From Chrysophaeum taylorii (lineage: Eukaryota; Sar; Pelagophyceae; Pelagomonadales; Pelagomonadaceae), in NCBI GenBank assembly GCA_029834535.1, contig JAQMWT010000428.1, forward strand, positions 121,479 to 185,478: DNA of 64,000 nt, read 5' to 3'. The notes under the pieces are model-generated. The model did no database searches and was not told where the DNA came from. It was given only the letters and a program-made list of their open reading frames with translations. How positions within the stretch are numbered: the first letter of the stretch is position 1; each line of letters starts with the position of its first letter. The position numbers and the translations under genes were made by a program. Positions 8,880-35,039 of this stretch are shown here, piece after piece.

Positions 8880-8884
8880 GTGGC

Positions 8885-9475: not shown

Positions 9476-9480
9476 GTGGC

Positions 9481-11622: not shown

Positions 11623-12700
11623 GAGCGAAAGCGCGTGATGCGGGTGGTCCGAGTCAGTGCCAAAAGGAGCGGGGCTCGCGGCTGACCTGTCTGCAAGGTA
11701 GGGATGCGAAAATGCTTACAGAAGTGGGTCAGTTGAAGCGAGTCTGTGCATAGTGCGAGGAGAATGTTTCCTGAGAGCGCAACGTCGATTTTCCGGAGGC
11801 AGCGCAAGCGTGTGGCGTCCAGAAGAGAGCTATGCAAGGGGACACACAGGACCGAAGTGGTCGCAATGGAATCGTGCATAGTTTGCGGCTGATCGGGTCG
11901 TTCAGAACTCTCGAAATCTGTGTCTGTTACTGCAGCCATGGGGAAAGGTTTCCAGAGGCTTGGTCGCGGTGAGACATAAGGATCGGCAGTCAAAAGGAGT
12001 GCGTCCTCTGACTGAGAGTTGGGGAGCGGGTGATCAGGTGTTGCGACTGGTGCTCGTGCGAAGACATCCATCAAATCGTTACACGGTGGTCGCAGATGGG
12101 TCCATGCAACCTGCTGAGCAGTGTCATCCAGTGCATCCAACCGAGAAGGTGGATGGTGGGTGCAGCAGCAAGCGCCGGTGAGCGGCAGTGCGCGCCTGTC
12201 TTCGAGGAGGGGAGGCGGCGAGGCGGAACCAGCTTCGAAGTGATCGGGAGCTGCGGATCGAGAGATATTGAATAAGGCGGGAATACCTTGTGAATCTGAG
12301 CTGATACCTGCAGGTGCGGTGAGTGCCTGCGAGTATGTTGACCGTGGGACCGTTGACAGCGTGTATTGTCCTTGTGGATTCGGCATTGCGGGTCATTGGT
12401 GGTGCTTGGATCATGCGGCTGATCTGGAATGGTCGAGGAGACCATCTTCGGGACTTGTGAAGTGGGTCTTGCTACTTCGCTGTATGCATCATACCAGGGG
12501 ACTGAATCAGAGGGAATGTTGTCAGTGGCCTGCGGCTCTTGTGCCCGGTGCATGGAATACGGCGGAGCTTTAGATTCTTGGGTGTGGTTGCCATAGTCGA
12601 TGTAGGCGTAATACTCGGGAACATCTCGAGGTGTCTTGGTCTTTGACTTGTCGAAAGTGGGAACGAGATAGCTTGGTGTTTCTTCGACAAGATTGCTTCA
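11502..12700 (-). pseudogene. Element X, second block: two overlapping frames of one broken gene
   Basis: One frame is open from about 12700 to 12071, the next from 12386 to 11502. The upstream one reads like an ordinary structured protein for about 50 residues ('PSYLVPTFDKSK', 'VPEYYAYIDYG'), then becomes Pro/Ser-rich. The two overlap in the region encoding repeated Pro-Pro and Cys-Cys stretches. Together they look like one ancestral coding sequence with a one-base loss. No family is recognised. Confidence 0.35.
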
Positions 12701-12732
12701 TGGGCCGTTGTGCCCGAAGAGAGAAGAAGCCC

Positions 12733-14688
12733 TTATGCATGTCTTGGCAGCATGATGGTGAGCATGACCATCTGGCAAAGAGCTGTCTTTTGATAGTTCG
12801 GAACTTGTCGACTCTTGATGTGGGTGGTCTTCATTATTGGTGGGACTTTGCACGTGGTGATCGTCGCTGGTGGTAGGGGTACGGTCGCCGGTGTTGAATG
12901 TACGCCCTCGCAACTCGGACGCGGGGATGTGGTCGAGTTGGAATGAACCAGGTAGCTGATAAGGCGAGCGGGTGCAAAGGGGTTCAGGGGGTGCCAAAGA
13001 GGCGAAGAGTGAGTGGGTAGAGGAGGGGCCAGAGATGGCGGGGGTTGAGAACAGAGAGACGGAGTGGGTGGTGAACCAGGAGAACCAGGTCCGGGGCATC
13101 CGTGGAGGTGGTGATGATACTCGGGGAGAATCGGGGGAGAGGCATTGGAGGTTGGTTCGGAAGGGGATGAAGGTTGGTTGTGGATGGGGAAAGGAGGTGA
13201 AAGATGCGATGCAGCATCTTGGGTGGGGTGAGTGGCATCCAATGAGGTAAGAATGGTTTGGAGGACGGCGTTGGTTTCAAGGTGGGAGCTGCGGATGTCA
13301 GCGTGGGCAGTTTCGAGTGCCTTGAGCTGGGTGTGGGTGAGATGGTGTTCGGCTTGGGTGGAGACCAGTTCGTCGGCTTGAATGGCGAGCTGGGCAGTGG
13401 CGAAAGCCAGGGTGGCGTCGGTGATGTTGAGTTTGTTGGCTGTGGAGGACAAAGCGTCATCATTGCGAATGAGCATGGCCTTGGTTGCGGCCAATTCAGC
13501 GGTTTGGGAGCGGAATGCAGCCGTAGTGGCGGCCAACTCGCGTTGGAGCGCAGACGGAGGTGCATTGGAACTTTGAGAAAGGAGGTGGAGTGTTGCTTGA
13601 ATGGGGACTCGAGTGGGGACGGAGGAATGGTCGTAGTCGTAGAATGCATAGTCACGCGGGTGGAGGTGCAAATCGGGGGAACAGCGACTTTCGAAAGGTG
13701 ATGAAGGTCTGTCAGGAGGGTGCGATGGTTGGGCGGCAGGAACTTGAGCCGCGGAAGGAGCTGTGGTAGAAATGGAAGTGCCGGGGCCGTCGTGGCCGTA
13801 GGTGGCATGGTCTTGTGGATGGAGAGGAAAGTCCTGAGGAGAGTGACTTGCGGAAGATGATGGATATCGGACAAGGGAATCCGACAGTGGGGCGGCATGA
13901 GCTTGAGCCGCGGTGGGGGCTTGGTCAGGGATGAAGGTGCCGGGGCCGTCATGGCCGTATATGGCATGATCATCAAGGAGATGAGTGGTGCGGCGAGGGG
14001 GTTGACGAGGATGTTGGGGAACTTGTATAGGTGGTGTAGCGGGAGTCGCCGATAGTGGGGAGTTAGGCTCCAGTGAAGGAGGTGGAGGCTCCGGTGGGGT
14101 TGGTGGAGTGAAGGGAGTAATGTTTATTGGTGGTGGAGTGTTCAACATTGCTGGTGCGATATTTGAACAAGGTGGAGTGTCCTCGTGAATGTGGGGTGTG
14201 CCAGGTTGTGGAGTAACCTTGGCTATGCCTGGGTCCGGAGGGAAGGCAGTTGGGTCTGAGACTTTGCCGTGGGGTGTTTGACATCCAGTGGGGTTGTCGG
14301 CATGAGGGGGGGTGACCATCGAGATGATCGGGTCTTGGGTCGCGACTTCGTGAGAAGTTTGCTTGTGCTTGAGGGGAGTTGCCGTATGAACAGCTGGTTG
14401 GGGAGCTTGTTCAAGTTGCTCGTCTTGATCGAGTTGCACGTCTTGATCGAGTTGCTCGTCTTGAGCAGCGATTTTGGCTCTGAGAGCAGCGTAATCAGCG
14501 GCGATTCTGGCTTTGAGAATAGCTTGATCAGCGGCGAGTTGATCCAAGAAATTAGCTTTGCGCCGTTGGCAATCAGCGGCGAACTGAGCAAAGAAATCGG
14601 CTTGGAACTGTTGAATGAGAGCTTGTTGTGTAGCGAATTGCTTCGCTACTTCCAGACTCGGGACTTGTGGGTCGTGAGTCGCCATCAT
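12733..14688 (-). CDS. Element X, first frame: Pro-rich protein with coiled coils and tandem repeats
   Basis: The longest frame of element X. I place the start at the ATG at 14686-14688 (another ATG follows at once), giving about 650 residues. The N-terminal 90 residues are Gln/Ala-rich with heptad-like spacing ('FQADFFAQFAAD', 'DQAILKARIAAD'), consistent with a coiled coil, followed by an acidic Asp-Gln-rich run. A Pro-rich middle holds repeats of roughly 50 residues marked by 'YGHDGPGT'. A second Ala/Leu/Thr-rich helical stretch follows, then a Pro/Ser-rich tail. A helix followed by a disordered proline-rich region is common in retroelement Gag or ORF1 proteins, but there is no zinc knuckle or clear capsid. 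Function unknown. Confidence 0.5.
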   Translation of the reverse strand: MMATHDPQVPSLEVAKQFATQQALIQQFQADFFAQFAADCQRRKANFLDQLAADQAILKARIAADYAALRAKIAAQDEQLDQDVQLDQDEQLEQAPQPAVHTATPLKHKQTSHEVATQDPIISMVTPPHADNPTGCQTPHGKVSDPTAFPPDPGIAKVTPQPGTPHIHEDTPPCSNIAPAMLNTPPPINITPFTPPTPPEPPPPSLEPNSPLSATPATPPIQVPQHPRQPPRRTTHLLDDHAIYGHDGPGTFIPDQAPTAAQAHAAPLSDSLVRYPSSSASHSPQDFPLHPQDHATYGHDGPGTSISTTAPSAAQVPAAQPSHPPDRPSSPFESRCSPDLHLHPRDYAFYDYDHSSVPTRVPIQATLHLLSQSSNAPPSALQRELAATTAAFRSQTAELAATKAMLIRNDDALSSTANKLNITDATLAFATAQLAIQADELVSTQAEHHLTHTQLKALETAHADIRSSHLETNAVLQTILTSLDATHPTQDAASHLSPPFPIHNQPSSPSEPTSNASPPILPEYHHHLHGCPGPGSPGSPPTPSLCSQPPPSLAPPLPTHSSPLWHPLNPFAPARLISYLVHSNSTTSPRPSCEGVHSTPATVPLPPATITTCKVPPIMKTTHIKSRQVPNYQKTALCQMVMLTIMLPRHA

Positions 14689-14790
14689 TATTGGGTTGCG
14701 TTTTGCGCGTTGTTGGTTGCCTTTCACACTTTTTCACACTTTTTCACCAGTAGCAAGCGATGAGACTTGACAACGGTCTTAAAACTATCA

Positions 14791-15208
14791 GGAACGTCAG
14801 GAGATTGCTCTTGCCTGGAAATCCTGGGTCTTTGTCCGAGACGTCGATCGAGGTCGATGTCTTTCGGAGGACGTTTCTCTACCAGTACCGGACTGGGTCC
14901 AAACCTAGAGAACAGTAAAAATCACTGTGCCTCTGGTAGAGAATGGTGGCAGTGGTAGTGCTGCCTTTCGTCCTGTCCTCTAACGACACAAAGAGCAGCA
15001 CGGTGTGCGGCACAGCGATTTTGTGGTTGTAGGTGTGAGTGTGAGGTTAAGGGGGGGAGGTTCCTAACCCTAAATGGAATTTTCTATCTCTAGGTTCAAT
15101 TGGTACACATGGCGCGCAGAGCTACTGTGAGCGCTGCCTGAGCATTGGAAATCTTGTCCTGACCGAGGGAAACACGTTACTCGGCGCGGACGAGACGGAC
15201 ATAGTTGC
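14791..15208 (+). pseudogene. Possible host gene, 5' portion, cut by the Gypsy element
   Basis: From about 15094 to 15208 the plus strand is open and reads a protein-like sequence with a Cys pair ('SYCERCLSIGN') and an acidic end ('LLGADETDIVA'). This frame continues across the Gypsy insertion once one copy of the 5-bp target duplication is removed. Upstream, 14791-14914 is also open and can be joined either directly or by treating 14915-15093 (the 190-bp repeat) as an intron with a GTAAAA donor and a TATCTCTAG acceptor. I do not recognise the family. It may be host sequence or a still older mobile element. Confidence 0.4.
14906..15093. repeat. Right copy of the 190-bp direct repeat, with inverted ends
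   Basis: It matches 6738-6928. Its edges form a perfect 10-bp inverted repeat: AACCTAGAGA at 14902-14911 and TCTCTAGGTT at 15087-15096. As an LTR it would be the 5' LTR of element X. Alternatively it is an independent small repeat, possibly intron-like, because its ends offer a GTAAAA donor (14915) and a pyrimidine-rich CTAG acceptor. The left copy lacks the AG at the matching place. Confidence 0.5.
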
Positions 15209-15528
15209 TATGGCGGCACAGAAAAAAAACACTCCCGACCCCCGGGTGACAAAGGGGGTACTCATCGACTCGTCCTAGACCTCACTGAACGAGGAAAACA
15301 CGGACTCGGGGTCGGATATGCTCGCCACACACCTTGCTCACGCTCACCAAACCTCTCAACAAGATGGGGCGATGGTATATGATAGCAAGAATGCTACAAG
15401 AATACTGCAAAAATGCTTCTCACAAGAGAGAGGTGTGACCTCACTAGGAAGATAGGGAAAGGCGTCCCGTTGAACGGGTATCAAGCCTCGAGAGAGGGGG
15501 TTGCCTTGACGGTCAGGAGTTGCCGCCA
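15209..15528 (-). repeat. 3' LTR of the methyltransferase Gypsy element
   Basis: It is about 320 bp and matches both halves of 23530-24296. The ends carry the inverted pair TGGCGGCA / TGCCGCCA. On the element strand the LTR starts TGTGGCGGCA in the other copy and ends GCCGCCAT. A purine-rich AGGGGAG lies just inside (about 15533-15539 on the minus strand), a candidate polypurine tract. Confidence 0.8.
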
Positions 15529-15719
15529 CAGGACTCCCCTGGCGAGAACACGAGCGGCCCTCAGCGAGTCCGGCGAGAAGCACGAGCCTTGGCTGAATGA
15601 GCATCTCGGGAACGAATCTTCTTGTAGGCACGTTCAACGACAGGTTCAAGAACGCGTCCACCACGCAAGGTGAACTTAGGAATCAACACATCGATCTCAT
15701 GCGGGGCGAAGTCGGTGAC

Positions 15720-16991
15720 TCAAGGAGTGGTACTGTTGTTGACCTTGGTCTTGTCGGTGAAACTGCGACCGTCCACGTCCTTGTATTCCGGCTTAAGCTT
15801 GCGAGTAGAGAGATGTGAAGTAGGCTTGTAATAAGAAACCTTGTCATGGGGACCGAGATCAGCATAGAAATGCAGAGCGACTCGATCATTCACAAAATCA
15901 TAGGGTTCATAAACTTCAGCGACATAAATCTTCTTTCGCCAATCGGATCGTTTATTATCCGGAATCCGGAAGGTAACGAACTTACCATGCTTGTAATCAT
16001 CCCGAAAGGTCTCCTTGGGCTTGGGCGCAGCTCGATCGACCACTGGAGAAACCATCACAGGGGTAATCTGGCTAACATGAACACAACGGCGTTCGGGAGG
16101 AGAATCAAGAGACTCAATCCTGTAAGTGACCGGGGACAAGCGTTCCAAAATAACGAATGGACCGCGCCATTCCGGTCGAAGCTTGTTCTGAAGAAAAGGG
16201 ATGTAGAGCAGAACATGTGAACCTTCTTCATACTCCACATCAACATGGTCCGCATTATAGGCGAGGCGTTGTTTACGAAGAGCCTTCTCACGAGCTTCGT
16301 TCACCGTAGCGGTATAGAACTTCAGCCTCTCGCGAGTCTCTGCCACGACATCGGAGTGAGTTTTCGGCAGGCGACGGACATCAAGATCCATGATCGTGTA
16401 ATCGGTTGGCAATAAAGGCTGCCGGTTAAGACGAAGCATGCAAGGTGAGATCTGAGTCCCCGGAATAAATTTACGATTGTAAAAGAAAGCAATGTACTCC
16501 GCGAATTCGGGCCATTCCGTGATCTTGCGGTTTTGAAGGCACGTACGGAGGAAAGCCTTAATAAAGCGGTTGACCCTTTCCGCAGGATTAGCCTGAGCAT
16601 GATACGGAATCGTGGTACTATACCGAACATTGAAAAGATGACAAAACTCTCCCATCAACTTGTTGACGAACTCTTCCCCATTGTCGGTACGAATCATCGG
16701 AAGTAGATAACCTTTGAGTAATATATTCGCAACAAAAGACTCGAGGATTGACTCGGCAGTCTTATGGTGTAGTACGTCGAGAATCAAGAAATGAGAAAAT
16801 GGACAAAAAAAAATGATCAGATATGTCTCGGGACCAGCACCGGGCAAAGGTCCAAACAAATCCATACAAAGGACGGCGCAATCACCATCATACACCGGTT
16901 GCTGAAGCAGACCTGCTCTCTTTGGTTCAGGCGTACAAGCTTTCTTGCACACTATGCAACCAGCAATGTAAGCATCCACCTCATTAGACAT
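15720..16991 (-). CDS. Integrase (catalytic core and C-terminal domain) of the Gypsy element
   Basis: This is the rest of the integrase whose zinc-binding N-terminus ends the preceding frame. The first residues finish the HHCC zinc site with Cys12 and Cys15 ('AGCIVCKK'). The DDE core follows: Asp44 ('LCMDLFGPL'), Asp103 ('RTDNGEEF') and Glu138 ('NPAERVN'), with exactly 35 residues between the last two. A C-terminal 'EWRGPFVILERLSPVTYRI' block corresponds to the Gypsy GPY/F module. An extra tail of about 115 residues rich in Lys, Asp and Tyr follows, not a chromodomain I recognise. The ATG at 16991 is internal; the frame joins the previous one by a one-base shift in a run of T. All three catalytic residues are present. 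Confidence 0.9.
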   Translation of the reverse strand: MSNEVDAYIAGCIVCKKACTPEPKRAGLLQQPVYDGDCAVLCMDLFGPLPGAGPETYLIIFFCPFSHFLILDVLHHKTAESILESFVANILLKGYLLPMIRTDNGEEFVNKLMGEFCHLFNVRYSTTIPYHAQANPAERVNRFIKAFLRTCLQNRKITEWPEFAEYIAFFYNRKFIPGTQISPCMLRLNRQPLLPTDYTIMDLDVRRLPKTHSDVVAETRERLKFYTATVNEAREKALRKQRLAYNADHVDVEYEEGSHVLLYIPFLQNKLRPEWRGPFVILERLSPVTYRIESLDSPPERRCVHVSQITPVMVSPVVDRAAPKPKETFRDDYKHGKFVTFRIPDNKRSDWRKKIYVAEVYEPYDFVNDRVALHFYADLGPHDKVSYYKPTSHLSTRKLKPEYKDVDGRSFTDKTKVNNSTTP

Positions 16992-19330
16992 GTGGGGCCA
17001 CCAAAAACGTTCAAGTATCGACTACACTGTACTTGACGACCCGTGTGACCACCATTGAGAGGTGTGTCATGGTACAATCGGATGATGCGCGTCCGTAAAG
17101 TTCGGGGTGCGACTATCATCGGGTGCAGGTCAGGTGCGGCACGGTAGAGAACTCCTTTCACCACTTGATGGCGATAATTGGCTCCGTACCGACGAAGAGA
17201 ATTGCCCTGAGCCATGCGATAACGAATGTCCTCGCATGTAGCATCAGTGATCTGCTCTCTGGCTATCTCTTCCAAAGTCAAATTATCCGGAATCTTGTCG
17301 ATGTACTCTTGGTAATCATCGGCATCACGGAAAATACTAGGCTGGCTCTGCTGACGTTGCTTCTGACGTTGTTTCGTAGCATGAGACGTGACCAATTGCA
17401 TCGGCTCATCGAGGTCTTCTTCCTCTTTCTCCACAGGCAGCTCAGTCGTAACAAACGACAGAATGACATGGCACACAGGTAAAGGTACTCCTTCATCATC
17501 GACAGACTTTTGATTGTCGGGGGGGGGCAGCAGAAAAAGCATTGGCCGTCCCCGGCGCATCTGTCGGAAGCGGAAGCATAGGAACTTCTGGCGGTTCCCA
17601 TTTAGTGGGATCCTGGAGATCATAGTGGGATCCTGAAGATCATCTTTTGACACCCACTTAACGACACGAGTACGCGTATTTAACAGCGGAATCTGTACGT
17701 GACGAAAGGTGGTGTCGGAGATTCGTAAATACTGCTCAAAGGATCGATCTGTCGGGCTCAACGCGGTCGGCAGGACTTCACCACTTTGGCGGGAGCCTCT
17801 GGTCGCGGAGTTGTGCAGATCGACTGCAAAAATCACAAGAGTATCTGGAGGGACGATAGACGCTAAATGTTTGAACGAATCTGTCTTAGACAAGCTAGCC
17901 CAATCATGATCCACCGGCATCGTGAGCAACTCGGCCGTCATCTCGAGAGTCAAAGGCTGAGTGTCCGAGCGATGCGGTCCCAAACGAAGAGGAACTCGCG
18001 TAACGGTGTAAGCCGTATCTGTTGCTTCTCGGGACGAGCCAAGATTATTCAGCTGGAACAGGTGGCGTTCATGAGCATAACTTAAAGCTGCAGCAACTTT
18101 TTGTTGCATGTTCACACATGTCTTTGGAGCCTCTTGCAAGTGCAGTGGGTGACTGGAAACCAACAATCGCACGCGAGAGCTCATCGGAGTGGGCGTGATA
18201 TCATAAAAATTGACGACGTACACGCAAGGGTGTAAGCGCGCTATATAAGAAATAATGGACGCCTCCGGTTCAATCAGCCACATCATGAAGCCAGCCATTT
18301 TGCACAGCTTCATCCTCCAGTTAGTGGCCGTAACACCCCTGCCAACATCTCTGGATGTCAAGTTGCAGAGTGCTGAATGAACGCAGGGTGGAGACGCTAT
18401 ACACATCGACGATGACCATTCCGCTTCAGGCAAATAAGCCTTGATAAACCGGAGGGTCGAGTCATATCGTCCGCAGAGCGTGTGCTGAACCACAGGTATC
18501 TTCGGCAAATTCTTCTGATGAACCTTGTTGGCAGCTGTTGAAGAGTCAAGAGCAAGGACGACTCGAAACGACGTCCCGCACAACTCGGTCGCTCGTTGCA
18601 GTCCTAAAGTACTTCCTCCGGCGCCGCTAAAGAGCATCACAACCTTGCGATACGTGATCGGCACCCAATGGACCTTTTCAAACCTTCGGCGAATCTCGCC
18701 TTCTGTAACTTCTCGGCATTTCTTTTCCTCCTCGTCAGTTCGTCGGTCGAAATCGTCGTTACCGAGCGATTCTTGACGATTATTCTTCTTCTTATCGGCA
18801 GAAGGAGACGCCTTCTGCACCGAGCTCAAAAGCATCGGTTCGGGAGCCGCATCGCCTTGAGTAAGATGCCTTGCGACCGAAACAGTGAATGATAGATTAG
18901 CCTTGTTAGATTCGGCTTCACCATCCTTCGTTAAATCGCCGACCGTCTCAGCATTCAGCTCGCCATCGAAACGAACAATATCGCCCAAAGCAAGGACTTC
19001 ACCTTGAGTAATCACGGTCGGCACATCCTGGGTAGAGGATATCGCCACTCGAGCTGCGAACTTATCATGATCCTCATGAGAAGAACACATTCCATCGACT
19101 ACCCCGAGTTGCTCGTACCCAGAGGACGTAGCAACGAAAACCTGCCCAGTTTCCATGGGCTCTGAAAGGGCGACTGGCACGCAGTAGGTGCGCCCGGGCT
19201 CGACCTTCATCGTGCGCGCAGCATAGGCTATCACTTCATAGGCATCGCTATTCGAACTTTGAGAAGGCGTAACTTGACTCTCCAAGTCGTCGAAGCTCCC
19301 GCTCGTGTCGGCGGTGGACGCTGGAGGTCT
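16952..19330 (-). CDS. Linker + cytosine-C5 DNA methyltransferase + integrase zinc domain
   Basis: The frame has no ATG at its 5' edge and continues the protease frame after a one-base shift. Numbering from 19285, residues 1-110 resemble the beta-rich linker that follows protease in Gypsy polyproteins ('VEPGRTYCVPV..', 'VITQGEVLALGDIV'). Residues 115-210 are charged and disordered. Residues 213-490 are a C5 methyltransferase. Residues 500-670 are unassigned. Residues 675-765 are the integrase N-terminus, with His739 and His747 ('YHDTPLNGGH') of the zinc site. Gypsy RT and RNase H would normally fill the space between linker and integrase. The fusion in one frame shows that the methyltransferase belongs to the element and is not a neighbouring gene. 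Confidence 0.88.
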   Translation of the reverse strand, partial: RPPASTADTSGSFDDLESQVTPSQSSNSDAYEVIAYAARTMKVEPGRTYCVPVALSEPMETGQVFVATSSGYEQLGVVDGMCSSHEDHDKFAARVAISSTQDVPTVITQGEVLALGDIVRFDGELNAETVGDLTKDGEAESNKANLSFTVSVARHLTQGDAAPEPMLLSSVQKASPSADKKKNNRQESLGNDDFDRRTDEEEKKCREVTEGEIRRRFEKVHWVPITYRKVVMLFSGAGGSTLGLQRATELCGTSFRVVLALDSSTAANKVHQKNLPKIPVVQHTLCGRYDSTLRFIKAYLPEAEWSSSMCIASPPCVHSALCNLTSRDVGRGVTATNWRMKLCKMAGFMMWLIEPEASIISYIARLHPCVYVVNFYDITPTPMSSRVRLLVSSHPLHLQEAPKTCVNMQQKVAAALSYAHERHLFQLNNLGSSREATDTAYTVTRVPLRLGPHRSDTQPLTLEMTAELLTMPVDHDWASLSKTDSFKHLASIVPPDTLVIFAVDLHNSATRGSRQSGEVLPTALSPTDRSFEQYLRISDTTFRHVQIPLLNTRTRVVKWVSKDDLQDPTMISRIPLNGNRQKFLCFRFRQMRRGRPMLFLLPPPDNQKSVDDEGVPLPVCHVILSFVTTELPVEKEEEDLDEPMQLVTSHATKQRQKQRQQSQPSIFRDADDYQEYIDKIPDNLTLEEIAREQITDATCEDIRYRMAQGNSLRRYGANYRHQVVKGVLYRAAPDLHPMIVAPRTLRTRIIRLYHDTPLNGGHTGRQVQCSRYLNVFGGPTCLMRWMLTLLVA
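17816..18649 (-). other. Cytosine-C5 DNA methyltransferase domain
   Basis: The family transfers a methyl group from S-adenosylmethionine to cytosine C5 in DNA. Motif I (cofactor binding) is 'VMLFSGAGGSTLGLQ' at residues 217-230. Motifs II-III are around 'VLALDSSTAANKVH'. Motif IV is 'ASPPCVHSA' with catalytic Cys301. Motif VI is 'LIEPEAS', where the Glu of the usual ENV is kept but Asn-Val is not. Motif VIII is 'MSSRVRLLVSS' with the RxR pair. Motif X is 'LTLEMTAELLTMPVDHDW' followed by 'LASIVPP', matching the GNAVPP region. The target-recognition segment between VIII and X is short. Order and spacing agree with a complete, small enzyme of about 280 residues without a long regulatory N-terminus. 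Confidence 0.88.
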
Positions 19331-20889
19331 TCAATCTTGCACAAGCGAGCGTAGACTCGGTTCTCAACTGTGCTCAGGCTCTGTTGCATCGCATGGTGCT
19401 GTTGCCCATAAACCTGAACTACCACAGGATTGCGCTCGTCATAAGTTGTTCTGAACGTCAAAATCGGAGAATCGACACGTCGATCCTGCACCTTTAACTT
19501 CTTGCGCCCATAAGCGACTTGTGTGCGGAGAAACGCAATGCGATTTCGCGGGTAGTCCACTATGGCTCCCAACACCCGAATATCGCGCGCTCCCAGCAAA
19601 AATAGATGATTAGTATCCTTACCCTGATCGCCGACTGCGGTTGCGATGGAGGACGGTGCCTCATGAATCCTGAGCCTTGCGAGGGCATCCGCCCTCCCGG
19701 CGTAGGTTGGCACCTATTCGCCTCCCGGGCGGGCCGGTTGGCAGCCGGAACGTTCGCAGTGGGACGGGGTATGGCCGGGGGGCGAAGACGGAAGGTTATC
19801 GACGAGTTGGTTGTCAGTCACATCGCGGTCTCCTCGTCGCATGGCGACAAGCTTGATGGTCACTCTCCGCCGACCGACCTTTCGGCGCTCCTCGTCTACA
19901 GGCCCGTGATTCCGGACTGGCTCCTGTCGGTCCGGCCTGGCTCCCATGCTCGGGAGAGGTCTGAAGTTAGTTAGTTAGTTAGTTAGTATCGGCCACAATA
20001 GCAACAACTGGAACGGCCACGTTGCCCGCAAGCGCAATCCGCAATGCGACCCATTTGTGGATAGTCGTCTTGTTCAATCCTGACCCGTACAGGGTGCGCT
20101 CGACTGGAAGATCGCCCCGGTCAAGGATGATGCTATCCTTTTCCAGTTTTTCAACCACCCCACGACAAATATAGGAGACATCCCCCATTCCATCCACGCC
20201 TAAAGTCGTTGCAAACTTCGGCCCATCTCGTCGTCTATAAATATGACCAACTATAAACGTAAGTGTACCAGGGTCCAAACAACCAATGGTGATGAGATAT
20301 CGCTCGATCTTTTCCCCATCGCTCGGCGAAAGTGCAGTGTGATGACATCGTATCACCGGTTTCGCATCGCCCGGCATCTGCATCGTCACCGCTGCCATAT
20401 CTGGCGTTCCACATCTCGCCGCTGAATCTATATTGGCGCTCGCCGCTTCGGCTGCTTCCTCATTCCCCAGTTTCGCTGACAACAAATTCTGACACTCTTC
20501 AATCGGAGGCACATATATCTCCTCCTTTAACTCTTCTGGCAATCGCCGTTTCTCGTCCATCAAATCGGACATTCCCATCAACTTCTCCTCCATCGGCGCC
20601 GCTGTGGTCTGCTCTGCTGCGACCAAAACGGTATCGGCTAAAACATCGGCTAAAACGGGCTCGACATCGGCTAAAACGGGCTCGGGGGGGGGCGTAGGAA
20701 AAGAAGACGTCGTCCCCGACGTCAACTCAAAAGGTCTAACGTCATCATCGTGAACTGCCCTGCAAGACATGCACATTGACGAATGGGGGGGCACTGGAAC
20801 CTGCGGCATGGGTTCGTCGGTCTCCGAATCTGAGTCTTCCCAGTAGTGCGGAGAATCCAAAGTAGTATCTGATATTGCTTCCACATACT
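19231..20889 (-). pseudogene. Gypsy aspartic protease region, split by a SINE
   Basis: The upstream half (20889-19991) begins acidic, contains a short repeated 'PVLADV' stretch, and reaches a protease-like fold: 'TTLGVDGMGDVSYICRGVVEKL' corresponds to the usual DTGA..SFI active site but reads Asp-Gly-Met-Gly. After removal of the SINE and one 8-bp target duplication the frame continues without shift into 'HLFLLGARDIRVLGAIVDYPRNRIAF', the second half of the protease with the LG-D motif. The remaining 90 residues lead into the linker frame through a one-base shift. The SINE disrupts this copy, and the altered active site makes activity uncertain even without it. Confidence 0.7.
19618..19982 (+). 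mobile_element. SINE-like repeat inserted in the Gypsy protease
   Basis: It is about 365 bp, nearly identical to 24784-25146, starts at the same base (ACCCTGATCGCC) and ends in a (GTTA)n tail. TTAGTATC at 19610-19617 and 19983-19990 is the target duplication. The last 60 bases, including the CTCCC..CGGGAG hairpin, resemble the LINE-C end at 9400-9475. Identical 5' starts in two copies argue for a defined short element rather than random LINE truncation. The open frames across it are not considered genes. Confidence 0.85.
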
Positions 20890-20958
20890 ATGTAGAAGGC
20901 CACCGAACGATCCGAGCGTTGGTGGTATGTTGCTCCTGTTGCAAACGATGGCTGCTCG

Positions 20959-22176
20959 TCACTGCGACATCGGCAACATCATCGGAGACTCCGGCGGGCC
21001 GCGCCGTCGGGTAAAAGACAACCCCGACAATGGCGGCGCGTCGCATAAAGATTGGAACGCGAAAGTTGCGCTCGAATGTCCCGAACTATCCTGATATCTG
21101 CCTCCGTCATATTCGCCATCGTAATGTCGATGACGTCGGCGCCGGCGCGAATTGCGACTAGAGCTCCGGTGACGGCGAGGACTCGGGCTGCTTTGAGCAG
21201 TATGGGCTTTTCGATCAGAGCTCTGGCTTCGATGTCGTCGCGACGATCGTCTAGAAGGTGATCGTCCGTCTCGCTGTCGTGTAGAAATCGATGTAGTATC
21301 CTTGATGCCCTTGACCTTGCTCACCATGGTCGCCATTGTGGTTCCAAGATCGGTGAGGGCTGTTTGAAGTTCATTAGAAGGCTCCGATCCGCGCGTGGCG
21401 TTCGCATGAGATGCATCATCACGCTTCGCCCAATCGGAACGCGATATGGGCTGCTTCTTCTGCTTACGAATACGCTTCCACATCGCACAGTAGTAACGAT
21501 CCGGATCGCGGTTGCAAACCACGCGATTTCCGTGTTCATCTTCATCATGGGTGGTCCAGAAGAACCCACAGTGCGGGCACGTTCTCTTGCCCCACAAAAA
21601 AGGATCTCGTAAGATCAGCGGATCCGCATTCCCAGACGGTTTATCTGCATCTTGCTTGGCTTGTTGATCGGAGGCCATAGCTCGACCTCCCCGCCCTCGC
21701 GGCGGTTTATTCGATTTCGGATTAGGAGGGCCTTGGTCCTTCTCCTCCTCCATCAACTTTCGTAAGTCGTTCTCGAGCCGCGTAATAGGCGCTACCATCG
21801 ACTTAAAAGTCACGTAGCTATCAGTTTGTCCGCTCCTCATAGTCCGCACACGGGTCCTCAACTCCTTGGATGTCAATCCACTGATAAGCTGGTCGAGGAT
21901 ATCAACATCATCCATCGTGCGGCTGGACACGGAACAAAACTCCAAGGCTTCCGATTGGAATCTGGTACAATACGTCTGGACGTGCCGCTCCCCAGACTTC
22001 TTCGGAACTGAAGCCTGGGTGACCCTCCGCAGCTTGTCGAGCAGCTCCTGCTGCGTGCGCCGAGGTCGGCAAGTCGATCTAAAATAATCCAAAATCTTAT
22101 CGCAATACGTCTCGTTAAGACGACGGATGCGACGAACCGAGGCTCCATGCTCTTCATCGTCAGTATCCAATTTCAA
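20959..22176 (-). CDS. Gag (capsid and nucleocapsid-like part) of the Gypsy element
   Basis: Residues 20-140 form a helical block with the pattern of Gypsy capsids ('LLDKLRRVTQ', 'VQTYCTRFQSEALEF', 'ILDQLISGLTSKELRTRV'). A Cys/His cluster follows at residues 200-221 (Cys200, Cys203, His210, His215, Cys221), not the usual CX2CX4HX4C knuckle. Residues 305-370 are an Arg/Ser-rich stretch that could bind RNA. The stop is followed by about 70 bases before the protease frame opens, so no simple frameshift links them. The N-terminal portion is in other frames upstream. Confidence 0.75.
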   Translation of the reverse strand: MKLDTDDEEHGASVRRIRRLNETYCDKILDYFRSTCRPRRTQQELLDKLRRVTQASVPKKSGERHVQTYCTRFQSEALEFCSVSSRTMDDVDILDQLISGLTSKELRTRVRTMRSGQTDSYVTFKSMVAPITRLENDLRKLMEEEKDQGPPNPKSNKPPRGRGGRAMASDQQAKQDADKPSGNADPLILRDPFLWGKRTCPHCGFFWTTHDEDEHGNRVVCNRDPDRYYCAMWKRIRKQKKQPISRSDWAKRDDASHANATRGSEPSNELQTALTDLGTTMATMVSKVKGIKDTTSISTRQRDGRSPSRRSSRRHRSQSSDRKAHTAQSSPSPRRHRSSSRNSRRRRRHRHYDGEYDGGRYQDSSGHSSATFAFQSLCDAPPLSGLSFTRRRGPPESPMMLPMSQ

Positions 22177-22189
22177 GTAAAACGACGGA

Positions 22190-23097
22190 CCGTGCGCTAG
22201 CTCATCGCAGAGCTCCTCGTATTCTGCAAGTGTTCCTCAAAAATGGGTGCAACGGTGTCCCGTAGATGCACAGGTAGTAGGTAACGTAATTTCTCGACCG
22301 AGCAATGGTCATCTGCTAAAGTATGCATCATCGCCGCCGAATCCAATTTGAATTGCCGTTGGTCTCGGCCGTCGATGACGAGTTTGAAGTTGTCAGGCTT
22401 CAAATTGGAGGTGGGTCGACGGGATCGGCTCAAGTTGCCTTTTCGAAGGCGACCGCAACCGTCTGCGATATTCCCCGCGATAATTCCCGTAAAGTTTCGT
22501 ACCTTCTTTCTCAACTTCCGCCCTACCCTCAGTCTCCGTATCGACTCGGGGCAGAGGTTCACTCCCCGTTTCAGTGTTCCTTTCCGGTTCAGGCGGCCTC
22601 ACGGGCGTCTCCGGTTCGGGTCGACTCACATGTCGTTCGCGGCTACTCTCCTGACGCGCACGTTCGGCTAACAATTCATTTCGTTCACGACGAAATCGTT
22701 CAACCTCTTCACGTAGGGTCTTCGAGGTCTCAATCTCTTGCTGTAAAGCATCATTGAGCACATCAACTTCTCGTCAAGCCGCTGCCTCTTTCGCTTCAGC
22801 CCTTTCACGAGCAAAAAGCTCAGCTAATCGTTCATTTTCGCGACGTCACCGCTCGAGGTCTTCACGAAGTCGAATTCGGGCTGCAGATCCGCGCTCAATC
22901 GTAACACGCTCGCCACGGTCCGGGGTCGTTGGACTCAACGGCGAAAAAATAGCAGTATCCGGAGGCACGTCAGGGGGCACGTCAGCAACGTCGACTGCCT
23001 CGGCCCCTCTTAATTCACCTTCCTCGCGGCCTATCTCAGGGGCGGCGGGAAGAACTGGAGGAGATTCTTCCTCACGCACGTCTGCGTTTATCTCCAT
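22190..23097 (-). pseudogene. Gag N-terminal region, frameshifted
   Basis: An ATG at 23095-23097 opens an acidic Pro/Glu-rich frame that changes frame near 22850 and again near 22450. The middle part is a charged Arg/Glu coiled coil ('LREEVERFRRERNELLAERARQ'), and the last part includes 'FKLVIDGRDQRQFKLDS' and leads to the main gag frame. The pieces read as one N-terminal extension with two or three indels. The 23098-23529 interval before it is a leader without a clear gene. On the element strand, just inside the 5' LTR, a TGGTGGAT stretch is a weak primer-binding-site candidate. Confidence 0.55.
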
Positions 23098-23529
23098 ACT
23101 GTATCAAATATCGATCAAGAATCTCGAAACACGTCCGGATCCGATCACTCGAAGTAATGCACGTTGATTCCAAAAACGCTATCTGTCGCTGTAAAAACAG
23201 CACTCGCGAAATTCCAATCCGCCGGCAATTCAAAAATGCCGTGGGTAGCGATCCCTCTCGCTAAACAGCTTCCACCGTTCAGCTATACCAAAATCAATTC
23301 CCGGGAGAATGCGTTGCGATTTCAAACTCGCACGCGTGTTCGTCCTCACTCGGATCACACGAACACAAACAACGTTCGCGTATATGCTCAACGCAAACCG
23401 GTCCACTGGAACTCCGTGTGCTTGATCAGGGCGCACGTACAAATCCGGACCACGTATACAATACGTACGGTAGCACTCGCTCGTCGGCGACCGATGTAGT
23501 CGCACGAGCTCGTATCATCCACCACGGAT

Positions 23530-24296
23530 GGCGGCACAGACAAAAAACACTCCCGACCCCCGGGTGACAAAGGGGGTACTCACCGACTCGTCCTAGACCT
23601 CACTGAACGAGGAAAACACGGACTTTTCACCTTCGATACGATGCGTGCCGCCGGCTTCGTCGCCGCTGCGAGCGGCCATCGAGGTCGCGACCGCGGTCTC
23701 GGACTCGCCCGCGGGTTGACGTCCAGTCGACAAACCCGAAAAAATACTCGGCGGCTCGCTCTACGGGCGGCGCGCCGCGCCGCCGGGCCCGGCACTTCGA
23801 TACGATGCGTGCCGGCGTCTTCGTCGCCGCTGCGAGCGGCCACCGCCGTCCCGACCGCGGCCTCGGACTCTCCCCCGCGGGCGACAACGGCTCGCCGTAA
23901 AGTCGCGGCCTTCGTCGAGGCGTCGTCGACCTCGACGCGTCCGCGACCGCGATTACGCTTTGGTCGACGGTGGTCGCGCCACGACCTGGGACTGGCCGGG
24001 CTCTGGCCATCGCAAACCTCGCGACCTACTGCTGGAGCGCCTACGGATCGAAGACCTCGAAAAACGACTCGGGGTCGGATATGCTTGCCACACACCTTGC
24101 TCACGCTCACCAAGCCTCTCAACAAGATGGAGAGGTGGTATATGATAGCAAGAATGCTACAAGAATACTGCAAGAATGCTTCTCACAAGAGAGAGGTATG
24201 ACGTCACTAGGAAGATAGGGAGAGGCGTCCCGTTGAACGGGTATCAAACCTCGAGAGAGGGGGGGTAGGCCTTGACGGTCAGGAGTTGCCGCCACA
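23530..24296 (-). repeat. 5' LTR of the methyltransferase Gypsy element, with an internal insert
   Basis: About 765 bp, against about 320 bp for the 3' LTR. The outer parts match (23530-23623 and 24067-24296), and about 440 bp in the middle are absent from the other LTR. The end sequences carry the same TGGCGGCA / TGCCGCCA inverted pair. Confidence 0.8.
23624..24066. repeat. GC-rich insert with an internal tandem duplication in the 5' LTR
   Basis: It is present only in the 5' LTR. Two similar units of about 160 bp start near 23631 and 23796 with 'ttcgatacgatgcgtgccg' and share a GC-rich body full of CG dinucleotides. Frames across it are Arg/Ala strings of low complexity. It may be LTR sequence deleted from the 3' copy or an insertion in the 5' copy. 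Confidence 0.6.
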
Positions 24297-24476
24297 GTTG
24301 CCCTACTGCGCATGAACAAGAATTTCATTGCGGTGGCCCGGATTAAGTACAGGGACCTCGGACACGAGACCGAGTTTTTCAAAAACGCCGAGATCTCCAT
24401 CCGCGAAGACTCTTTGGAGATGGAGGTTGATGAGGAAGAACCAGACGAAGATACCGAGGTCGTTCACATCGCCTAA
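24297..24476 (+). pseudogene. Possible host gene, 3' portion beyond the Gypsy insertion
   Basis: From the second GTTGC target copy the plus strand reads on in the same frame as 15094-15208 and ends with TAA at 24474-24476 after an acidic tail ('EVDEEEPDEDTEVVHIA'). The segment between includes 'MNKNFIAVARIKYRDLGHE'. I do not recognise the protein. The in-frame join across 9 kb of element is strong evidence that one coding region was interrupted here. Confidence 0.5.
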
Positions 24477-24764
24477 AGTAAGAAACACTGAACCTAATCC
24501 ACGGCAACTCCTCCTTCGCCCCAAAACGCGAATGGATCTAAGAGCACCAGACCTAGGCAATAGCGCGCGGGGGGCACGGAACTGACGGGGCGCGGCAGGG
24601 ACCGACGCTGGCGTTAAAAAAAAAATAAGTGGCGTTCACTTCACAAAGGTTCACGATGGCCACGTAGGGTGACGTGTTCACTTCGAATCACTTCACCAAT
24701 ATTGCGTGGCTGGTGGAGTGGTTCACGTTCACTTGCTGAAGTGAATTCCCAACGCCGAAAGTAA
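24477..24764. other. No gene; GTTCACTT-rich spacer
   Basis: No protein-coding signal. Between about 24640 and 24740 the words 'gttcactt' and 'cacttc' recur several times. A run of A lies near 24617-24627. Confidence 0.4.
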
Positions 24765-24783
24765 TAATTGCGGAAGGGTTAGG

Positions 24784-25146
24784 TTACCCTGATCGCCGAC
24801 TGCGGTTGCGATGGAGGACGGTGCCTCATGAATCCTGAGCCTTGCGAGGGCATCCGCCCGCCCGGCGTAGGTTGGCACCTATTCGCCTCCCGGGCGGGCC
24901 GGTTGGCAGCCGGAACGTTCGCAGTGGGACGGGGTATGGCCGGGGGGCGAAGACGGAAGGTTATCGACGAGTTGGTTGTCAGTCACATCGCGGTCTCCTC
25001 GTCGCATGGCGACAAGCTTGATGGTCACTCTCCGCCGACCGACCTTTCGGCGCTCCTCGTCTACAGGCCCGTGATTCCGGACTGGCACCTGTCGGTCCGG
25101 CCTGGCTCCCATGCTCGGGAGAGGTCTGAAGTTCGTTAGTTAGTTA
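24784..25146 (+). mobile_element. SINE-like repeat in the Copia 3' region
   Basis: This is the second copy of the 365-bp repeat, flanked by a perfect 14-bp target duplication GCGGAAGGGTTAGG (24770-24783 and 25147-25160) and ending in (GTTA)n. It interrupts the 3' region of Copia copy 2, so it inserted after that element. Confidence 0.9.
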
Positions 25147-25160
25147 GCGGAAGGGTTAGG

Positions 25161-25426
25161 AAGGGGGGGGGGGGTAAAGTGAGGGAAAGCCGTATTACGG
25201 AGAGAAAACCCTCAAGTAGAAGGAGTGTGAAAGGAGGTGCGAGGAACTCCAGTGTCGTACACATTATAGTGTAAGCTGTAGCTCTCTGGACCCCCTCAAC
25301 GTGTGGGAAAGGCTTTATGCGTTCCAGACGTTCTTGAGTGTGAAGCTTGTGTACGATACATGAAAGCATCGAGTAACTTAAACATAAAACAACAACATAA
25401 ACGATGAGGTTACATTACAATTAACA
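25161..25426 (-). other. 3' region of Copia copy 2
   Basis: About 270 bp after the ORF-B stop, well conserved with 32684-32953 of copy 1. It includes a 'ccccctcaacgtgtgg' block and an A/C-rich stretch right after the gene. It probably carries the 3' processing signals. Family 2 has a comparable 'tctctgcaccccctcgag' block at about 41955. Confidence 0.55.
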
Positions 25427-27417
25427 TTAGGAGGAGGAAGTTGGACGTGTTGTTACATTACGTAACGAATCAGCATCCACAGTGTCTGATGTATGGTCCA
25501 ATTCATCATCACTATTGTCTTCAAGTTTCTTTAATTCTGGAGAGGAAGTGACATGATCTTCGAGCTGGTCGTTAGTGGTAGTGTTGTTCATAGTCGTCGC
25601 GTCGCAGAGATCAGCGAGTGGGGACATGACAGAAGACAAGTAGGACATAGCAGCAGCAGGTGGTAGAGTACGCAATTCTGTTGCAGGAATAACACGATCC
25701 TGTGCATCAGACATAGCGGTATGTAAACCAACAGCTGTATTTTCGATTAAAAGTTGTTGTGTCTCCTCAAAGGTGTTTGGAGGAGACTGTTCAACTGAAG
25801 CGATAAGGGACTTGGAGATAAGGTGAGCTAAAACAGCAAGGGTGGGCAATGTAGCGTCCTGGTGCATCTGGTAGCTGGAAAGCAAATCGTCCAAGAGTGA
25901 CACATGCTTGGTGTTATCAGTTAATTGCGCGGTGAGAGCATCGTTTGCACTTTGAAGTTGAGTGATGGTCTCCAAAGCATCGGAGATTCGTAGGTCACGT
26001 TCTGCAAGTTGCTTATCACGCTTGGCGATGTGCAAAGAAAGTGACTGGATTTCTTCTTTTAAAAGTCGTAAAGTTTCGTGTACATTATCAAGAGGCTCAG
26101 CTGTAGGAGTAAGCACAGCATGTTCATGTTCTTGCTCAGATTCAGACAATTTAGTGTCTGAAAATGAATCTATTATTACGGAGGGATAACCAACTTGGAT
26201 AAGCACATTCTTGAATGCAGTCTGATGATCTGGGACTAAGTTAAGGAAGTAGTCCACCATCGGTGGCAATGTCTCACGAGAGGAAGTGTGAATCTGATGT
26301 GTAACATCATTAACGAAACACTCAATGAGAACTCCGAGAAGTTCGTCAGGGGTTGTGACGACACAAACTTTGTCTTCGACGGACTGTAGTAGTGACCAGG
26401 CGGTAATAAGTATTTCGAGATTTACAATCGAAACATGAGGAAGTTGTAAAAGCAGTGGGGAGTTATCATCGTCTGGGCTGACTACTATGTCAGAGCTGTC
26501 AAGGTTGTGAACGGCCATGCATTTGAGGAGCGCGTCTTTGAGCTGTTTATTAATTGGAATGGACTTTCCAAAGCGCAAGATAGCGGCTCGAATATGGGCT
26601 GAAGGGTCATTATGACACGAGAGAAGAAACGTGTCAAGACGGTTCTTAGTTAGTGCGGTCCCGTGTTGCGAGAGGTTACACATAACACATATCCATAAGA
26701 AGACTGGACGAGGGATATCGAAGCAGTGCGCGGCATGCTGCGCTGATGCCAGGTGCTCTTCGATAATTTTAGTAACTTCATCCATTTTTACTTCGTCCTC
26801 AGTACAAATAGCGAGAACTAACGGAGTACCAGGTGCGTCAGATTTATTGAGGCACTTGGTGCAAAGCACATGTACTTTGACAACTCCTTTAACCTGCGGA
26901 GTTTTATGTAGACGAATGCCTTCATTTACTGGTACATTTGGTGCGTTTTTAATCCGTTTGGTCTTTAAGCACAGGAGGGAGCCCAAGAAATGAAGATTAT
27001 CAACTTTATTGTTCTGTTGTGCATCGGTGAGCAGCTGCTGCATAGGCTGAGACCAACATTGAATATCTTTAGGAGGAGGGAGTAGAAAATTCGGAGGGTG
27101 ATTACCAAGCGAAAGAACGTTCCCAGACATCATCGCCATAACGTCAAACTTACAGTTCTTTAACAAATAGTACTCTGTGCTCTTGACAGGGGTGTCAACA
27201 TCCTGTCGAGTTGATATTGACGTGGGAGTAACCGGTGTCTTGGTTCCTTGAGCAACAGAGAGATACGACGGTCGCTTACGGTTGTTGGGAGATCCGGGAG
27301 GAACAAGTGCCGGATTTAATGGATTAAAAGGTGATGATAAAGCGGATATTCCACCACGTCCACGATTAACACTGAATATCGTCGTCGTGCTGCATCTTTA
27401 TTCTTGGCAGGGTTCAT
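25427..27417 (-). pseudogene. Copia ORF-B, copy 2
   Basis: The ATG at 27415-27417 starts an Asn/Lys-rich N-terminus matching copy 1. A one-base loss near 27370 changes frame, after which about 580 residues are open to 25427. The first 250 residues include a Cys/His cluster ('VLCTKC', 'HCFDIPRP', 'CVMCNLSQHG') that could bind zinc. The middle is helical, and residues around 370-440 have regular heptads ('LRLLKEEIQSLSLHIAKRDKQL') typical of a coiled coil. The acidic C-terminus ends in '..RPTSSS'. It lies about 110 bases after the pol stop. It is not the capsid gene, because capsid-like sequence and protease precede integrase in the pol frame. The role is unknown; the position is that of an env-like or accessory gene. 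Confidence 0.6.
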
Positions 27418-27480
27418 CTTTTGTAAACATATATGAAGATCATATTATGTTTTCAGTGAGCCGCAATTTTCGTTTCTGTG

Positions 27481-27507
27481 AGGGCTAGTTTAATGTCATT
27501 GCGGACA
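27481..27507 (-). promoter_or_regulatory. Conserved 27-nt sequence between pol and ORF-B (copy 2)
   Basis: It lies just after the pol stop and before the ORF-B ATG. It is identical to 34995-35021 and agrees at 23 of 27 bases with 43785-43811 of family 2. On the element strand it contains TTAAACTAGCCCT. It may be a splice acceptor or internal promoter for ORF-B. Confidence 0.45.
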
Positions 27508-27525
27508 TAGTGATAAGGGTAACGA

Positions 27526-30500
27526 TTAAGTATCTTGCTGGGCTATGGGTTGTTGTAGACCAAGTAACGTGCGAAACCTAGCGAAGAGAGGAGCACCGAA
27601 GGGCTTAGTGAATCCGTCAGCAATATTTTGGGTGCCTGAAACATGGTGCAAGCGAATACGTCTTAGGTGAACATAGTCACGAATACGAAACCAGCGTGTG
27701 CTGATGGCTTTGGCTTTGGTTGCACTATCCGGATTATTCGATAAGTGGATGGCAGAAGCTGAGTCTCCAAGTATAGGGCTGTTACGTATGAATGACATGT
27801 CTGACGGGAGGGGATTGTCATGGGCATCATAATCTAATAGCAGATCTTTCCCTGGAGGTTGGCGACTATAGTATTGCGGATTTATAGCAAGAGCCATTTC
27901 CGTCCGCAGTTTGCGTAGCCAGACCATATCATCAGCACACATATTTAGAGCAATAAGCTCACTCTCATGTGTGGAAGTGGCCGTCATGGGTTGTAATTTA
28001 GATTTCCAAGTAATAAGGGAACCAAACAGGAAAATAGCATAACCAGTTGTAGGTTCGCGATCTTGTTCGTAGGAGGGTGCGTTATCAGCATCGACGAACG
28101 CAACCAGTGGATCAAAATTACATGAATCCACTTGTTCTTTAGTATAGTCCAACATGGTTGCCATATCAGTGCGATTGCCGATAATAGATATAAGATGTTC
28201 CATTAGAGCAGAAGAACCAGAGTAGTACCATAATCGAAGATTGCGATTTTCTGGTTTGCGCAAGTAGCGAAGTACTCCTGTTAATACCTGGACGTGCAGA
28301 TATTCTGGATTGTGCATTCCACGGGAGCAGCGACTGAGGCTTTGCGATAAATCAGGGCGACAGGCCAGCTGTACAAAAGTGAGCTTGCCGAGTAGGGTGG
28401 AGAAGGTATGTTGTATGAACTCGTCCATATCAGAGGATGGCTCTCCAGTTTTATATATAGTTGAAGGAGACATAGGGGTAGATGTTGGACGTAAATTTGC
28501 TAGTATAGGGTACTCTTCAAACAAGGCATCGATTTTAGCTTGGCAATCGAGTGAGATGGAGCCATCGGTAGTGCGTGTTACTCGCATGCCTAGAAGAGTA
28601 TGAACTTCTTCAAAGTCTTCAACGGAGTATTCTTTCTTTATGGCCTGTTGAAATTCACGACGTAGACTTTCCGATGTACAGATGACAACAACATCATCCA
28701 CTGATAGAGTACAAAGTAGAAACGTGGCGTCGGATTGGACTTTGGCATAGATGCAAGTATCTGTTCGAAAGCGTTGATATCCTAACGTGTCAAAGAAACC
28801 GTTTATGGTTTGGTTCCAGAGTGCAGGGCTCTGTCGTAATCCATAAAGAGATTTGAGCAGTTTTGGGAGACGTCGTCCCTGGTACTTTGCATCTTCTGGG
28901 TCCAGTAGGTGAATACCTTGTGGCAATTTAACGTAGACATGAGAATCTATGGGGGCTTGGACAAACGCGTTGGGCACGTCTATGTGATAGACAGGAAGTC
29001 GGAGGTGTGCTGCGAGAGCTAGAACACAACGAATACCAGTGAGCTGCGCCATTGGACTGAGTGTGTTAAAGAAGTCGGTGCCAAGTGAAGCTAAAAATCC
29101 CCTCAGGACCAATCTCGCTTTATGTTTGATGTATTCGCCGGCGGCGTTGGTCTTTATACGTAATACCAGCCGGGTATCAATAGGCTTGGAGTTGGCCATG
29201 GGCAACGATAACTTGAAGCAGCCAAATTTGACAATATCAAAAATCTCCTTGGAAATTGCGGAGATGTAAGCCTTGCGGTCAGCATCTGAAAGACCTTTTA
29301 GGCAGGTCAACTCATATTCATCAATCTTGATATCCTTGGCTTGAATTTTATATTCGTCCGGACCAACAGTGCTGGGATCTTGAGCGTGAGTTAGGTGGAT
29401 GATCGCGTAAGAATCAGCAATAGCGGTAGTATGATCGGGATCGGGAGTTTCGACAAGTTGAATGACAAGTAGAGGATCATCTCCAAGGTGTGCATCGATG
29501 TAATGAGACTGCACAGTGATGTAGTCTTCAATGGCGGAGAGGTGGGGTTCTGAGGCGCCATAAGAAGCATCGTTATGATCCATAACAGAATGGGGCGTTA
29601 GCAAAGCGCAAGCATATTGAGCGGGAGGAACTTGAAAAGCTTGGGCGTGTTCAGAAATTAGATGAACAAGAGCACGAGGGAGGTGGAAGTCCGAGAGGCT
29701 GAAGTCGTCGAGGAGATGAACAGGGGTGGCAGCCAACGGATGGCTAAGGCTACTATGACACATACCAGAAGAAGACTGGAATAGCGCTTGATGAACATGA
29801 TGATGAAGAGTTTGTGTAAATTCCCCCTCTGGAGGCATAGCCATCCAGTGGATGCCATGAGCAGCATGAAGGGAGTGGAGGGTGGGGTCGCAGAAGGCAA
29901 TGTACTGCTTGGAGAGGTCATACTTGAAGTCAGCAAGCGTACCACCAGCTTGTTTATAAGCGGCAACGGTTGGCGAAGCAATGCGGGTGAGAACAGCGTG
30001 GAGATTAGTCTTGCGACGAGGCTGAGGGTGATTAGGTCCGCGGGTGAGACGAAGGACGTCTTGCGAGTATAGGGACCGATAGGATTGTAAGATGGGTAAA
30101 TCATTGGACGGCAACTCAGATGCCGTAGGTGTGGCGACAGAAGCAGCGGGAGCACAGGCTGGAACTGAAGTGGGAGCGGGTGCTGGAGGTGAGGTATTCC
30201 CCCTCTCGTGTTCAGTGTCGTTGGACACAGCATTCCCCCTCTGCAACGCATCACTGGGGGTGCTTTGAACAGAAAAGGGTATCTCAGGTGAAGGTGCGGG
30301 TGGGGGATGTTGTTCGTAATCGGGAGGAGAATTAGAAGTTAGATGAGGAAAGGTAAGTTTAGATGAAACACGGACTTGGCCGTTCTCGGGATTAAGGACA
30401 ACATCAGCTAAGTGGTTAACATGGGGTGTAACCAGAGGGTTAATGACATTAGCGCCACATAAATATATGTAAGGACGACATCGAGGTTCATATTTATGAA

Positions 30501-34929: not shown

Positions 34930-34994
34930 CTTTTGTAAACATATATGGAGATCACATATTATGTTTTCAGCGAGCCGCAATTGCCGTTTCTGTG

Positions 34995-35021: not shown

Positions 35022-35039
35022 TAGTAATAAGGGTAATGA

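Follow-up and report, generated by a model that had tools for sequence, protein, structure and literature searches.

The window analysed here, a 64,000-nt stretch of contig JAQMWT010000428.1 from the pelagophyte Chrysophaeum taylorii (a stramenopile alga), contains at positions 15209-24296 a long terminal repeat (LTR) retrotransposon whose coding series on the minus strand comprises gag-like, protease-like, methyltransferase (MTase) and integrase regions. We read this element, with a probability of about 0.93, as a damaged copy of an abundant Ty3/Gypsy family with the order LTR, gag, protease-like region, C5 MTase, reverse transcriptase (RT), RNase H, integrase and LTR. An earlier note on this DNA had proposed that the MTase replaced RT. 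In other copies, RT and RNase H lie between the MTase and the integrase, and their loss from the window copy is a deletion of about 1.81 kb that fused the MTase to the integrase, not a replacement. With this deletion, broken gag frames, a repeat in the protease-like region and an insert in one LTR, the window copy is dead or dying.

The lack of RT and RNase H in the window, which the earlier note had reported, was borne out by a tblastn search (E 1e-5) with the Pol of copy C5, in which residues 2-44, 53-628 and 1234-1879, including the MTase and integrase parts, were recovered and no match was obtained for residues 629-1233, the part of C5 that includes RT and RNase H. For copy comparison, DNA was fetched round 10 of 57 MTase places. 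The order protease-like region, MTase and integrase was present in all ten copies, and an upstream gag match was detected in seven; C610 ends with its contig, and blastp detected no gag in C351 or C5. RT sequence was found in nine of the ten, with a best single match that covers from 175 (in C174) to 462 of the 462 codons, and the short matches may reflect frame breaks or stretch boundaries that cut the alignment. The RT contains one stop each in C351 and C610 and two in C246, and in copy C617 it is reduced to 71 codons with two stops. Copy C5 provides the most complete example, as a single 1,879-aa frame piece contains DNA_methylase (E 7e-4), RVT_1 (E 4e-12), RT_RNaseH (E 1e-25) and rve (E 1e-11), placing the MTase in one coding frame with RT and integrase; the open frame as a whole measures 3,063 aa, so that its beginning probably encodes gag. 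The order RT, RNase H and integrase was seen in the Pol of both C5 and C57, and the best PDB match of the family Pol was Ty3 Gag-Pol (7q5b, E 5e-69).

Four copies read across the gap (C246, C57, C683 and C610) carry 1,809-1,810 extra bases at window position 17505/17506 (minus strand), and the C57 stretch that is missing from the window holds the FVDD motif of RT, with RVT_1 and RNase H inside it by coordinates. When the genome (70.8 Mb, 697 contigs) was searched with a 30-base junction pattern allowing up to 3 mismatches, the window itself was the one match, and a reversed control gave none; with a 120-nt junction query, the window alone spans the junction among the best 40 of 441 candidates scored. 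A copy from the other subfamily (C617, G000:C617:23069-25657) has lost most of its RT independently, with breakpoints that differ from those of the window. Where copies were readable, RT loss is sporadic decay.

These data bear directly on the idea, put forward in the earlier note, of a non-autonomous class of elements in which the MTase has taken over the place of RT and RT is borrowed in trans. Such a class would account for a window copy that is devoid of RT, yet whose LTRs and target-site duplication (TSD) attest to the insertion of a copy, and C617 supplies a second RT-depleted copy. However, RT-bearing copies are common and regularly spaced, the breakpoints of the two depleted copies differ, and there is no evidence that an RT-less element has multiplied: an amplified RT-less subfamily was rejected as the junction pattern occurs once in the genome, and none was seen among the matches listed. 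Replacement of RT by the MTase is rejected because other copies carry RT and RNase H and the window junction was found once, and an RT-less class is extremely improbable. The earlier note had named RT in other copies, together with a deletion in this one, as something that would refute its reading, and this is what was observed. Trans-mobilisation of the window copy itself may have occurred, whether it preceded or followed the deletion.

The abundance of the family was estimated with probes of 110 aa and 111 aa for MTase and RT, respectively, counting an RT as downstream when it lay on the same strand within 4 kb. At least 150 MTase places (the best 150 of 704 candidates) and at least 150 RT places (the best 150 of 770 candidates) were found. 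For 69 of the 150 MTase places, a downstream RT is among the matches listed; the spacing is 1,372-1,434 nt in 64 of these 69 pairs and 1,063-2,497 nt in the remaining five. Among the matches listed, a downstream RT accompanies 39 of 98 places with MTase identity of at least 87% and 30 of 52 below 87%. The MTase match is free of internal stops in 33 of 57 places.

Several census figures weigh against our reading of the family. There are 81 listed MTase places (of 150) without a listed RT within 4 kb, and more RT-less copies may exist; a missing listed RT is no evidence of absence, because the lists hold the best 150 of 704 and of 770 candidates. Conversely, no MTase is listed for 81 of the 150 listed RT places; among the 56 RTs with an identity of at least 95%, this applies to 23, with none listed upstream, and some family members may be without the MTase. 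The counts may also be inflated by haplotype redundancy, as the contig pairs C10/C297 and C25/C521 have near-identical lists.

The remaining anatomy of the window copy agrees with a Gypsy-type LTR retrotransposon, an assignment of the earlier note that the LTRs, the TSD and the Ty3 match confirmed. The 3' LTR (15209-15530, minus strand, 322 nt, TGTGG...CCATA) was delimited by blastn of sister copies, its ends and the TSD, and a 442-nt insert at 23625-24065 divides the 5' LTR (23528-24296, minus strand). Where the two LTRs align, their identity is 93.5% over 232 columns and 97.9% over 97 columns. The 5-bp TSD, GCAAC on the minus strand, lies at 15204-15208 and 24297-24301; in four sister copies read at both ends, two TSDs are perfect 5-bp duplications (CATAT, CGAGT), one matches in 4 of 5 bases and one copy has none. 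All coding regions that follow are on the minus strand. The gag region (20959-22773) consists of several broken frames in the window and of a single frame in sister copies C174 and C235, and the blastp matches to sister copies substantiate the gag call. Next come the post-gag stretch and first part of the protease-like region (19979-20887, by blastp to sister copies), a dispersed repeat of about 365 nt (19619-19985), and the second part of the protease-like region with a linker (19231-19618, by tblastn with relatives). A 792-aa open frame (16952-19330) runs from the pre-MTase linker through the MTase, whose core lies at 17678-18730, and across the deletion junction into the start of the integrase. 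The integrase itself (H2C2, rve and C-terminal domain) extends over two frames at 15720-17107, as found by Pfam and sister copies, and its Pfam matches (rve E 5e-8, H2C2 E 1.6e-6, p58_C E 7e-9) confirm this part of the earlier description.

The claim of two protease-like halves held in part. The region is indeed split by the 365-nt repeat, and a conserved VDGMADVSYI ... FLLG.RDIRV stretch occupies the position expected for an aspartic protease before RT, so that the protease call is one of position and motif; a Pfam scan of two relatives in which the region is unsplit gave no protease match.

Both inserts have features of their own. The 442-nt LTR insert contains an internal 83-nt direct repeat (89%), and no copy of it was found in the DNA fetched round the ten family copies. 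The 365-nt repeat, which has TTAG units at one end, has a 99% copy at window 24784-25147 (24784-25150 in full) and further copies at window 53129-53449, at L019:4799-5162 and at other loci; identity is 97-99% in the best copies and 77% at 53 kb, and a copy apparently also sits in the integrase of C683. As for the origin of the inserts, tRNA and Rfam searches, which covered the window and 14900-25400, respectively, gave no hits.

A C5-type MTase within Pol, as the earlier note had described, has several lines of evidence, of which the sequence matches taken by themselves are thin. The window MTase scores 19.3 bits (E 8e-4) with PF00145, whose cut-off is 22, over the first 52 profile positions only; with TIGR00675, C5 reaches E 0.0015 and the window copy 0.025, well short of the cut-off of that model. 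A profile-profile comparison of the MTase with 25 DNMT2-type proteins (chosen from 120) yielded a probability of 96.5% (E 7e-10); on rerun, it scored 71.4 against 23.7 for the best of 40 column shuffles, and these shuffles and a reversed profile reached a probability of at most 2.2%. In addition, all ten aligned copies share, without change, FSGAGG (taken as motif I), ASPPC, which contains the catalytic Cys, a single Glu and RVR.

A number of results count against this identification. A clear ENV motif is lacking, with E-Q/P-E as motif VI; the C-terminal motifs are weak, and the C-terminal half was matched by eye only. No homolog emerged from protein searches, either among 4,920 candidates at E 1e-3 or among 7,993 at E 1, a PDB search of the MTase gave nothing below E 0.1, the best match being a DNMT2 type at E 0.12, and a single-sequence AlphaFold model of the MTase core had a pLDDT (predicted local distance difference test) of 34. 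No Dnmt3 was among the ten PDB matches up to E 10, and of 31 pattern matches in viral contigs, none was confirmed. Taken from its sequence, the enzyme would appear to be a divergent C5-type MTase of uncertain class, not recognisably Dnmt3, with the profile compared with DNMT2 types alone.

Substitution patterns point to a protein that is maintained. Between the two subfamilies A and B, the ratio of nonsynonymous to synonymous substitution rates (dN/dS) of the MTase core is 0.08 (21 pairs), compared with 0.12 in the pre-MTase linker (15 of 21 pairs unsaturated), 0.05 in the integrase (14 of 21) and 0.028 in RT (14 pairs), and the MTase is under purifying selection between the subfamilies. Two points temper this result: median dS between A and B is 1.5-2.5, near saturation, so that dN/dS is approximate, and within subfamily A the ratios are higher (MTase core 0.23, 21 pairs; integrase 0.23; RT 0.45, 19 pairs), as expected if many copies drift. 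Recombination between subfamilies was considered for the high RT identity of C5 (93% to C57, against 71% for its MTase to the window); since RT and the MTase core have similar median dS values, 1.5 and 1.6, this explanation was rejected.

A footprint of CpG methylation was not found. CpG is not depleted, with an observed-to-expected ratio of 1.22 in the element and 1.02 over the window, and transitions per site pair are 0.048 at CG, 0.043 at CC, 0.041 at CT and 0.023 at CA, so that CpG transitions are only 1.37-fold those at other C. The suggestion in the earlier note that the element marks or silences DNA itself finds no support in these CpG data. If cytosines are methylated, a persistent mutagenic CpG mark is probably not what results.

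How the enzyme might serve the element can be set out as a working model. The element would move as an ordinary Gypsy element, and its MTase, made within Pol, would be packaged beside RT in the particle with the RNA. As RT synthesises cDNA in the course of retrotransposition, the MTase would modify cytosines in the nascent copy, whether in the cDNA or in the RNA. The enzyme would have been captured once, before the subfamilies split, and kept as helpful to the element. We lean towards this modifier role, with some reserve.

Two other readings of the enzyme compete with it. The protein may be a passenger or decoy, a catalytically dead S-adenosylmethionine (SAM)-binding fold retained for a structural or nucleic-acid-binding role within Pol, which would fit the altered motif VI, the weak C-terminal motifs and the unremarkable CpG content and CpG transitions described above. 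However, the invariance of motif I, the SPPC catalytic Cys, the Glu and RVR in all ten copies and the strong constraint between subfamilies speak against this, and a dead enzyme seems unlikely. Alternatively, the MTase could act on genomic RNA or the tRNA primer and not on DNA. DNMT2 types are tRNA methyltransferases and are the best matches of the MTase, and the missing CpG footprint fits an RNA target. The DNMT2 match is nevertheless weak in sequence and confined to the SAM-binding half, and DNMT2 was the sole DNMT class compared by profile; we consider an exclusively RNA-directed enzyme quite unlikely.

A second repeat family with a C5 MTase (LPCQ, VEN) was observed at L039-L048, for example at C120:39296-39742 and C683:69659-70132, and accounts for up to 55 of 57 places. 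It matches PF00145 with E down to 5e-12, its five aligned members are 72-84% identical to the first, and a DGAS protease-like motif lies upstream in 3 of 5 frames read. A relationship between the window MTase and this second MTase was rejected, as profile comparison gave 0.4%. By eye among the RVT_1 and RVT_2 matches listed, one same-strand RVT_1 lies about 6 kb off (C120), and no regular RT neighbour of the second family was seen. The host genome also contains a DNMT-like protein with GTSCVDYS and ENV motifs (G000:C621:16962-17498), which we take to be perhaps DNMT5, and a DNMT2-like gene on contig C634, 100% identical to CTAYLR_008533 of C. taylorii. A broader reading would be that two unrelated C5-type MTase lineages, in the window Gypsy family and the second family, came to occupy the same slot behind a protease-like domain, that retroelements encode most C. 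taylorii cytosine methyltransferases, and that the DNMT2-like one acts on a new target such as element RNA, the tRNA primer or an RNA-DNA hybrid; as a whole, this is a long shot.

Other repeats surround the element. A neighbouring element at window 6738-15044 has 139-nt terminal direct repeats (96%), and no Pfam domain was found in the three long minus-strand frames scanned there; its part at window 9578-10657 shares 22% identity with the stretch that follows the MTase of the second family. Two Copia-type elements lie head to tail at window 25306-40965, about 7.5 kb apart, with repeated stretches 79-97% identical; RVT_2 is matched at E 3e-41 in the first and partially (E 0.007) in the frame scanned of the second. 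An inverted repeat of 130 nt (95% complementary) is present at window 45457-45586 and 62559-62688, 17 kb apart. Elsewhere in the genome, C696 (58,038 bp) has eight listed RVT_1 frames of 565-716 aa; its length is in line with the published 58-kbp mitochondrion, and its RTs are probably intron-encoded.

Finally, the family can be placed among known systems. Ty3 (PDB 7q5b), the best PDB match, shares RT, RNase H and integrase with it and to our knowledge has no methyltransferase. For links between DNMTs and RT, de Mendoza and colleagues cite Iyer et al. 2011. The genome paper of C. taylorii reports 71 Mbp in 702 contigs, and its main text uses neither 'transposable' nor 'retrotransposon' (PMC10366177). 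Our literature search, whose coverage left out most subscription papers and preprints, gave no report of such an element in pelagophytes or C. taylorii. In the accessible portions of other studies, Dam- or Dcm-encoding Ty3/Gypsy and DIRS elements are described in several groups including stramenopiles (Morozov et al. 2019, PMC6338049), where the pairing of enzyme, element and stramenopile is not specified, so that identity with the present family cannot be told; a 2025 survey mentions retrotransposon-borne DNMT3 in streptophytes and dinoflagellates (PMC12344493); and an Ectocarpus survey describes chromatin-reader domains in Gypsy elements and, in a DNA transposon, a methyltransferase of the N4-cytosine or N6-adenine type (PMC12477816).

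Among the closest parallels is KnitGypsy-Dnmt3 of the charophyte Klebsormidium nitens, a Gypsy element with a captured DNMT that, as far as the consulted part of the paper describes it, likewise has Gypsy-type domains, encodes a C5 MTase within its Pol frame, occurs in several copies and is under purifying selection, and that differs in its Dnmt3-related enzyme, its host and its DIRS-like repeat arrangement (de Mendoza et al. 2018, PMC5890265). The C. taylorii family, in contrast, has an enzyme that is not recognisably Dnmt3, a stramenopile host and ordinary LTRs. According to the same part of that paper, SymbioLINE-Dnmt and SymbioDIRS-Dnmt3 of dinoflagellates are also high-copy retrotransposons with C5 MTases under purifying selection, although of other retrotransposon classes, and SymbioLINE-Dnmt is CpG-depleted, whereas the C. 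taylorii family is not; de novo CG methylation by DNMTs of retrotransposons is reported there from tests in yeast, and self-methylation of retrotranscribed DNA was suggested (PMC5890265). Gypsy elements with captured DNMTs are thus already in print, and the C. taylorii family is a further case, with an MTase of uncertain class. It adds another, possibly independent, retrotransposon that keeps a cytosine-methyltransferase-like enzyme, here in a pelagophyte alga, in at least 150 places and two subfamilies, and it makes the use of such an enzyme to its element a testable question in a sequenced, cultured alga.

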